Shown here piece by piece: positions 26,420 to 30,616 of a stretch of 64,000 nucleotides of DNA (the stretch's first letter is position 1; each line of letters opens with the position of its first letter). A program made the translations under genes and the position numbers. The stretch is from the NCBI GenBank assembly GCA_021372375.1, contig JAJFUN010000062.1, positions 62,001 through 126,000 of the forward strand, in the 5' to 3' direction. The notes beneath the pieces are model-generated. The model worked only from the letters and a program-made list of their open reading frames with translations, had not been told where the DNA came from and ran no database searches. This stretch comes from Pelosinus sp. GTDB lineage: Bacteria; Bacillota; Negativicutes; Propionisporales; Propionisporaceae.

Positions 26420-26590
26420 TTTAACACTCTCCCCTCTACATACCACCTTTATCATTACAATATATGCGGAGTATATAGAGTGTGTGCCAGACAACCTTGC
26501 CTGCTGAACTTTTTTTGTTTTTTATTTTATAATAATCATGCAAGATATAAAAATTCATATTATACTATAATAAAAGGAGGAGTAAAATTA

Positions 26591-27013
26591 ATGAAAAATA
26601 TACTAAAAAAGTCTATCGTTTATGTAGTATTAGCCTGCTTTTTCCAGCTTGTCTTAGGCACTGCTATTGCATCAGCCTCACCAGGCGATGATCGACATTA
26701 TCGGCATGAGCAGCAACAAAGAGATCGTATGGAAAGAGAACGCCATGAGCAGCATGAGAGAGACCGCATTGAACAGGAACGGCATGAACAACGCGAACGA
26801 GAACGCATAGAAAGAGAGCGGCATGAACGGCGTGAGCATGAACGTCATGTGCGTGAAGAACGCGAAAATCGCCGGCACGAGGAAGAAATGAGGCGGCATG
26901 AACGTGAAAGTGAACGCGAATGGCATGAACGGCAAGAACGCGAAAGAGAACGCCATGAACGTGAAAACCGAAGAATTGCCCACGACATTCTAAATCTAAT
27001 TCTTGATAACTAA
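26591..27013 (+). CDS. Secreted Arg/Glu/His-rich low-complexity protein
   Basis: The protein has 140 residues. A signal peptide (MKNILKKSIVYVVLACFF ... ASA) is followed from residue 33 to 128 by almost nothing but Arg, Glu and His in a heptad-like rhythm (RERHEQ, ERDRIE, ERERHE), and it ends in a short hydrophobic tail (IAHDILNLILDN). AGGAGGAG precedes the ATG. The mix of i to i+4 Glu-Arg pairs predicts a long single alpha helix, and about one His in each repeat suggests metal or pH sensitivity. I recognise no family. It is convergent with trmB, with a shared terminator. Confidence 0.8.
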   Translation: MKNILKKSIVYVVLACFFQLVLGTAIASASPGDDRHYRHEQQQRDRMERERHEQHERDRIEQERHEQRERERIERERHERREHERHVREERENRRHEEEMRRHERESEREWHERQERERERHERENRRIAHDILNLILDN

Positions 27014-27037: not shown

Positions 27038-27085
27038 AATGGGGCTGTCGCATTAGTATTATTGCTAATGCGAACAGCCCCATTT
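27038..27085. terminator. Bidirectional terminator
   Basis: AAATGGGGCTGT-CGCATTAG pairs with CTAATGCG-AACAGCCCCATTT over about 20 bases; T-runs lie on both sides. It serves the Arg/Glu/His-rich gene and trmB. Confidence 0.85.
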
Positions 27086-29911: not shown

Positions 29912-30616
29912 ATGAACAAAAAAACAATAATTGCTTTTACAGCTTCTGCAACCCTACTGACAGGCGTCGCAAGTGCTGCACCACTAACTGACTATTCGGC
30001 AGGCAAGACTAGTATTGATTTAACTTGGAGAAATACTGAAATATCCGGAAATTCAGGTACTGAAAGAACCTTTGATAAAAATGGCAATATGGATTGGGGA
30101 ATTACCACTGGTTTAGGTAATAATTTTGCCATTCAATATCGTCAATTCAATCCGGAATCAAAAGATACAACAAGTCATAGTAATCCTTCTGTAACGACTA
30201 CAATGAAAGGGAAAGTCGATACCCAAGAATTTAATGTATTATATAAAATAGATAAAAACGTAGCTGTATATACAGGTATAATGAAAACTAAGGCCTACTT
30301 TAACCGTAAAGACACTGTATATGGTTCTGACGAATATCTTTGGGGTGGTGCAAGTACCAGCAAAAACAGATGGCAAATCGGTGTAGTCGGCAGTGCTAAA
30401 CTAGCTGAAAAAACTACTGGTTATGCGTCGCTTGCTGCAGGCAAAGATTTAACAAGCTGGGAACTTGGCATTGCACAAGAAGTTGCACCTAATGTAGATT
30501 TCAATATCAGCTATCGTGAGATCAAAGCCAATAATAATAGTGGCGGCGATTTTGGTTCGACAAATATTGATGGTACAGCTAAAGGTCTTGGTTTTGGCAT
30601 AAGCTATAAATTCTAG
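29912..30616 (+). CDS. Small outer membrane beta-barrel protein
   Basis: A signal peptide (MNKKTIIAFTASATLLTGVASA) is followed by about 210 residues of alternating hydrophobic/polar strands, such as KTSIDLTWRN, NFAIQYRQFN, EFNVLYKI, VAVYTGIMKT, RWQIGVVGSA and GLGFGISYKF. The terminal aromatic residue fits the beta-signal recognised by BamA. The start is ATG 29912 with GGAGGAAA upstream; a TTG five codons earlier would overlap that site. It is monocistronic between a strong promoter and a strong terminator, suggesting high expression. It is an OmpA/OmpW-size barrel with no assigned function, and a clear diderm marker. Confidence 0.85.
   Translation: MNKKTIIAFTASATLLTGVASAAPLTDYSAGKTSIDLTWRNTEISGNSGTERTFDKNGNMDWGITTGLGNNFAIQYRQFNPESKDTTSHSNPSVTTTMKGKVDTQEFNVLYKIDKNVAVYTGIMKTKAYFNRKDTVYGSDEYLWGGASTSKNRWQIGVVGSAKLAEKTTGYASLAAGKDLTSWELGIAQEVAPNVDFNISYREIKANNNSGGDFGSTNIDGTAKGLGFGISYKF

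Follow-up and report, generated by a model that had tools for sequence, protein, structure and literature searches.

The 64,000-nucleotide stretch of DNA analyzed here (the window) carries an open reading frame for a small protein dominated by Arg, Glu, and His, which raises the question of what such a chain might do and whether it belongs to any family. The features of the gene and its surroundings are listed below, with the strand in parentheses.

26591-27013 (+): open reading frame of the R/E/H-rich protein, 140 amino acids plus stop, ATG start
26573-26582 (+): Shine-Dalgarno sequence AAAGGAGGAG, 8 nt 5' of the ATG, read from the DNA
26591-26677 (+): signal peptide, residues 1 to 29 (MKNILKKSIVYVVLACFFQLVLGTAIASA), from the family signal-peptide alignment, cleavage site by eye
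26678-27010 (+): mature R/E/H-rich chain, residues 30 to 140, from translation and composition
26702-26826 (+): tandem repeat of 39 bp (13 residues), 3.2 copies, from Tandem Repeats Finder
26693-26899 (+): modeled helix 1, residues 35 to 103 (69 residues, approximately 10 nm), from AlphaFold2
26843-26971 (+): conserved hairpin core, residues 85 to 127, from the family alignment
26900-26911 (+): turn, residues 104 to 107 (ERES), from the AlphaFold2 model and family columns
26969-27010 (+): amphipathic C-terminal tail RRIAHDILNLILDN, from translation, the same tail being present in the paralog of the own genome
27040-27089 (unstranded): terminator-like inverted repeat with a T run, read from the DNA, arms at 27040-27056 and 27065-27082 with one bulge

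The inverted repeat lies between the gene and a convergent trmB-like gene and resembles a bidirectional terminator common to both; a scan for such elements gave no listing of it, and no RNA families were detected within the 64-kb window. Here and below, the labels small outer membrane (OM) barrel, rubrerythrin, desulfoferrodoxin, chemoreceptor, AbrB-like, and trmB were assigned by eye.

An earlier note on this DNA had described a secreted protein made almost only of Arg, Glu, and His, forming a single α-helix with regularly placed His. A secreted protein rich in these residues is indeed what is found. The signal peptide is of the Sec type, with the cut (TAIASA/SP) placed by eye, and shares K6, K7, Q19, and the residues A29, S30, and P31 with the family signal peptide (KKxxxYSMVGIMQxGxGASVxEASP), whereas its middle part has diverged. 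Of the 111 mature residues, 76 (68%) are Arg (32), Glu (31), or His (13), followed by Gln (7) and Asp (6); between residues 34 and 126, the R/E/H fraction reaches 78%. The words "almost only" hold for this bulk and pass over a conserved Trp, the turn, and the amphipathic tail. Opposite charges prevail at i,i+4 spacing (14 E-R and 18 R-E pairs versus 11 same-charge pairs), and the net charge of the mature chain is −5, compared to a family median of 0. The His residues, in contrast to the earlier description, are irregularly spaced (gaps of 3, 13, 3, 10, 13, 5, 3, 10, 7, 9, 10, and 9 residues), with a stripe strength of 0.28 at period 3.6. A regular stripe was rejected as well at the best period, 2.6, which is not helical and was equaled by 9 of 300 random placements.

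The earlier note knew of no family for this protein, and a clear one has emerged. The window protein belongs to a multicopy family of the Negativicutes whose members are small, helical, and exported, and among them it is unusually long; we use the working name REH family. A paralog in the own genome (L002) is 62% identical (E = 7.7e-31), the family has matches in all four genomes of the taxonomic family of the source, the own genome included, and a profile search across 380 genomes of the class detected it in 78 at E ≤ 1e-6. A single genome accounts for as many as 12 matches, a count in which a split gene can fill two rows. Strong carriers, defined by a best E ≤ 1e-15, number 55 of 380; the weak matches of group f11, which often lie between 1e-7 and 1e-8 and may be compositional, were not counted among them. 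In a phylum sample of 398 genomes, the own genome was the sole match at E ≤ 1e-12. As the 21 genomes listed from this sample are dominated by members of the same class (14, own genome included), mostly from lineages lacking the family, this result mainly shows that other classes yielded no match. Named carriers, with 44 loci, are Pelosinus, Sporomusa, Propionispora, Anaerospora, Lucifera, and Propionispira. Since locus L005, from a genome of the source's taxonomic family, is identical to L048 from Propionispora sp. 2/2-37, the source of the window DNA is probably related to Propionispora.

The 93 member rows comprise 82 distinct members after removal of 11 duplicates (the loci L003, L016, and L027, without a start codon, do not enter the promoter counts), with a median size of 114 amino acids. 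For 32 members, Pfam-A and NCBIfam named no family above cut-off; the matches, including those of the window protein to Pfam, were weak, scattered, and below cut-off, and named families were thus rejected. Sequence searches for solved relatives gave one chance-level match each, and the comparison of gene neighborhoods across genera revealed nothing clear beyond Pelosinus-internal synteny and tandem copies. Tandem REH pairs with two tail types occur in Pelosinus (L054, L059, L060, L061, and L064) and Propionispira (L069 and L070), and their products could form hetero-oligomers. Two further loci, L020:1974-2255 (+) and L142:1576-1860 (+), combine an REH-family signal peptide with a Pro/Gln-rich low-complexity body and a Lys/Pro-rich body, respectively, the latter with a promoter box (box 2, see below) upstream; the body seems to vary behind a retained signal peptide and promoter. 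Upstream of the own-genome paralog are rubrerythrin-like and desulfoferrodoxin-like reading frames (L002:248-760 and 778-1158, both +), which hints at oxidative stress.

The family is held together by a core of about 43 residues, ENxRHExEMRR-xHES-xxEWxxRQxxExxRHE. Six positions are invariant in a 32-row alignment (E92, R95, E106, R114, E118, and H122), all of which are present in the window protein, and seven are nearly so (R88, H96, E99, M100, R102, W111, and Q115); 79 of the 82 distinct members conform to a simple core pattern. The turn, ERES in the window protein, often reads P-H-E-S in relatives. Because composition can fake similarity, the body of the window protein was scored against a profile built from 41 relatives with the window protein excluded. 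It reached 43.5 bits, a value attained by none of 500 composition shuffles (best, −4.5) and none of 500 five-residue-block shuffles (best, 14.3); the similarity to the family is above chance. A 219-residue member, L041:1051-1707 (+), repeats the core about three times, which marks the approximately 45-residue core as a domain. The C termini are of several kinds (RRIAHDIL type, REIAALLIGIAIGS type, RTLGGLALL type, and short or polar), and 46 of the 82 members have a hydrophobic tail, i.e., an 11-residue stretch with a mean hydropathy of at least 1.5.

AlphaFold2, run on the window protein with 42 sequences, predicted a helix at residues 35 to 103, a turn at 104 to 107, and a second helix at 108 to 139 (mean pLDDT, 89.5; pTM, 0.54). 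The single α-helix of the earlier note is thus broken in the model, with the turn motif lying within the conserved part of the family, and the protein resembles a hairpin of unequal arms, one of them long, more than it does a lone helix. Its reading as exported, helical, and charged is supported by the model together with the signal peptide, export being predicted from sequence. The 13-residue repeat lengthens helix 1 relative to most members, whose alignment rows have gaps at this place, and an arm of about 10 nm is confined to the window protein and a few other members. In a second modeled member, from MAG CTSoil_075, the helices span residues 42 to 72 (31 residues) and 80 to 110 (mean pLDDT, 69). 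The conserved residues of the two arms recur with periods of 3.65 and 3.9, which would fit helix faces packing against one another, a suggestion drawn from the periods rather than from coordinates. A Foldseek search for the fold gave either no solved-structure match or E values above 5.

The DNA upstream of family genes features two direct half-sites 11 bp apart, with a fixed gap and a −10 box. Box 1 (TGTNAY-N5-TGTNAY, TGTCAT-like) occurs in 19 of 82 upstream regions of 150 nt, compared to 0.02 in shuffled sequences, and box 2 (TCTAAA-N5-TCTAAA) occurs in 11 of 82, compared to 0.01. Genome-wide, four genomes contain 49 distinct box 1 sites versus 2 for the reversed pattern (overlapping loci list some sites twice; the 49 are distinct), 10 of which precede REH genes. 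For box 2, 26 sites in four genomes stand against 0 for the control; in the Sporomusa-group genome G309, 8 of 16 box 2 sites precede REH genes. A weight matrix built from the 39 non-family box 1 sites only scored at least 9 bits in 42 of the 82 family upstream regions (shuffles: mean 0.1, maximum 1), and in 35 of these 42 the box starts 62 to 69 nt upstream of the initiation codon. As a matrix derived from non-family sites finds the family boxes, this is independent evidence of a regulator common to both. Among the 40 upstream regions below 9 bits, 11 have box 2 instead, some belong to second genes of tandem pairs, and some have neither box; the scan covered 220 nt, and the misses include L026, whose box lies beyond the scan, and L061, with only 29 nt upstream. 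In the Pelosinus tandem pairs, the box stands in front of the first gene only, where upstream DNA is present. In genome G035, box 2 precedes a family frame with an in-frame TAG (G035:C1:4729799-4730119 and G035:C1:4730163-4730195), possibly a decayed copy.

For 31 of the 39 non-family box 1 sites a downstream open reading frame was assigned, five of which have no clear ribosome site and are possibly wrong (L086, L089, L107, L121, and L131), and for 8 none was. A signal-peptide- or membrane-like start is found in 23 of the 31 assigned targets compared to 88 of 316 flanking frames (binomial P = 1e-7). According to Pfam, the targets comprise OmpH (G000, G014, and G026), HlyD-type fusion proteins (G000, G003, and G026), an HtrA-type trypsin-PDZ protease and DUF535 (both G003), PMT_2 and a 7TM histidine kinase (both G014), and a RelA_SpoT-type synthetase (G000). 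AcrB-type RND genes lie downstream of the HlyD-type targets (profiled in G000 only, with BLAST matches in G003 and G026), and an Omp85/POTRA (BamA-type) protein is encoded by the second gene of one target operon in G003. An unnamed secreted family of 210 to 235 amino acids with 43 to 51% identity stands behind box 1 in all four genomes (L095:1578-2207, L100:1576-2247, L118:111-815, and L129:803-1492), and related small barrels likewise recur in all four genomes scanned. Box 2 targets in G309 include a barrel, a homologue of the secreted L112 protein, and an HtrA that shares 69% identity with the one behind box 1; orthologous HtrA, small barrels, and the secreted L112/L158 protein thus carry box 1 or box 2 depending on the genus. 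Taken together, the boxes suggest a response-regulator envelope-stress regulon common to the family and its co-targets.

No such box precedes the window gene. Scored with the box 1 matrix, its upstream DNA reaches −7.8 at best and the whole window 4.0, on the other strand, while the own-genome paralog has a strong box 1 (32.7) starting 172 nt upstream. The promoter of the window gene would have lost the box or never had it, so the copy may be either constitutive or under other control. At 29912-30616 (+), the window also encodes a small OM-barrel-like protein related (E of about 1e-11) to box-carrying barrels elsewhere, and for this gene, too, no well-scoring box was detected within the window.

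The best explanation, to which we assign a probability of about one half, is that REH proteins are stress-induced periplasmic helical proteins working like Spy, CpxP, or Skp. An OmpR/PhoB-type response regulator, which we infer because the 11-bp direct repeats overlap the −35 position, would respond, probably to envelope damage, by activating genes for a protease, a Skp-type chaperone, OM assembly, and efflux along with those for REH proteins, in many cases more than one. Most family members would probably be made on demand. The charged, modeled hairpin with its hydrophobic or amphipathic tail may then serve as an abundant ATP-independent holdase or buffer in the putative periplasmic location, binding exposed parts of unfolded OM or periplasmic proteins, or the membrane surface, alongside the co-regulated HtrA, OmpH/Skp, BamA-type, and efflux genes. 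The family and the box it has in common with other targets are much firmer than the holdase step. Against this explanation stand the missing box of the window gene, the 40 family upstream regions below 9 bits, the RelA/SpoT-type synthetase among the targets, the 8 sites for which no reading frame was assigned, and the negative searches for a solved fold and for a sequence relation to Spy, CpxP, or Skp.

A periplasmic metal or proton buffer, in which His would be the ligand for Ni, Zn, Cu, or protons and the charged helix would serve only to keep the protein in solution, is possible but less likely. The high His content (13 in the mature chain of 111 residues; the family median is 8 and the maximum 17), the co-regulated RND/MFP genes, which could be for metal efflux (Pfam PF16576 names CusB or HlyD), and the rubrerythrin- and desulfoferrodoxin-like frames adjoining the paralog are in its favor. 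However, a clear helical His stripe is lacking, H122 alone is invariant with H96 nearly so, some members have very few His (down to 1), 90 of 93 rows are free of Cys beyond the signal peptide, and the co-targets are mostly folding, protease, and OM genes rather than metal genes. The modeled 69-residue helix of about 10 nm, the alternating charge, and the hydrophobic tails of 46 members would also suit a single-α-helix spacer or tether keeping OM and cell wall at a set distance, the tail sitting in the membrane and the helix spanning the gap. We consider this unlikely, as conservation centers on a hairpin, the chains of most members fall short of this length (see the median and the 31-residue helix 1 above), Pfam-A named no peptidoglycan-binding domain in 32 members, and stress-type regulation is ill-suited to a constant spacer. 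Binding of an envelope polyanion (lipopolysaccharide, polyphosphate, or nucleic acid) via an Arg/His face is quite unlikely: the chain is Arg-rich, and the co-regulated genes for DUF535, which we take to be VirK-type, and the PMT_2 glycosyltransferase suggest surface modification, but a net charge of −5 in the window protein and around 0 in the family speaks against a general positive surface.

The earlier note had placed the gene in a diderm spore former. Its own genome does encode SpoVAC/SpoVAE-type proteins, whereas a SpoIVA match is absent at 93% completeness. SpoIVA is present in 40 of 55 strong-carrier genomes compared to 11 of 325 others, an association that is not independent, as related lineages have common ancestry. 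The remaining 15 strong carriers, including the own genome and near-complete genomes from several families, have no SpoIVA. Of seven SpoIVA-less carriers other than the own genome that were checked, six also lack SpoVAC/SpoVAE. The family thus tracks sporulating lineages yet survives in several without SpoIVA; as, in addition, envelope genes stand behind the promoter box, a structural role in sporulation or the spore envelope is very unlikely. That the frame is a low-complexity sequence without function, as its extreme composition and weak sub-cut-off Pfam matches might imply, is hardly credible in view of the signal peptide, the ribosome site, the paralog, the class-wide family, the invariant core residues, the promoter box of relatives, and the shuffle test.

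A wider picture, possible but held tentatively, is a Sporomusa/Pelosinus-type regulon whose half-site switched from TGTCAT to TCTAAA with the targets kept, in which the hairpin acts as a bulk hydrophilic shield. One response regulator would drive HtrA, OmpH, the BamA-type protein, RND efflux, and the small barrels, and the most copied effector would be a periplasmic protein of a new kind, a charge-alternating hairpin acting through no specific site. Such a shield would leave the REH body free to be stretched, as in the window protein, or replaced by filler rich in Pro/Gln or Lys/Pro with the signal peptide kept. Sporomusa/Pelosinus-type Negativicutes are diderms unrelated to Proteobacteria, and to our knowledge, how the OM is guarded in diderm Firmicutes is largely an open question. 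A search of literature listings and of passages of PMC10628300 revealed no description of the REH family or its regulon, nor of any envelope-stress regulon of Negativicutes. The family appears undescribed and looks like a new player in a known type of system, the envelope-stress response. The promoter box makes both the regulon and the new effector family directly testable, and a half-site change with targets kept would, if true, be a clean case of regulator-site co-evolution.

Among known systems, Spy and CpxP of the E. coli Cpx and Bae regulons are induced by envelope stress together with an HtrA-type protease and efflux genes. REH proteins resemble them in being small, exported, all-helical, charged, and likely induced by envelope stress. 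Unlike Spy and CpxP, which form cradle dimers, they are multicopy and predicted to form a hairpin, and none of 32 members has a Pfam match above cut-off; nor did Pfam-A or NCBIfam relate any of them to Spy, CpxP, or Skp above cut-off, the single sub-cut-off match to the NCBIfam CpxP family (E = 3.2e-4) being probably compositional. With Skp/OmpH they have in common the helical exported character, and OmpH genes carry the REH-type box, but the families are separate (PF03938 matches in 0 of 32 members). The alternating Glu and Arg, the many opposite i,i+4 pairs, and the long modeled helix recall single α-helices (ER/K helices), from which REH proteins differ by a conserved turn, a second helix, and an amphipathic tail, and by standing alone as exported proteins instead of linking domains. 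Asr-type acid-shock and His-rich metal-binding periplasmic proteins likewise combine a signal peptide with low-complexity polar repeats, whereas REH proteins have near-neutral charge and a defined conserved core, with one weak NCBIfam Asr match among 32 members (E = 0.025). The promoter boxes, finally, resemble those of PhoB, CpxR, WalR, and CiaR in their direct half-sites spaced by about 11 bp and in the gap of about 10 bp that separates them from the −10 box. A Pho regulon is not favored: the half-sites of the family promoters resemble the Pho box, yet no pst gene stands behind the 49 box 1 sites. The targets are envelope genes instead, and the REH-type boxes are set apart further by two half-site sequences that differ by genus and have overlapping target sets.
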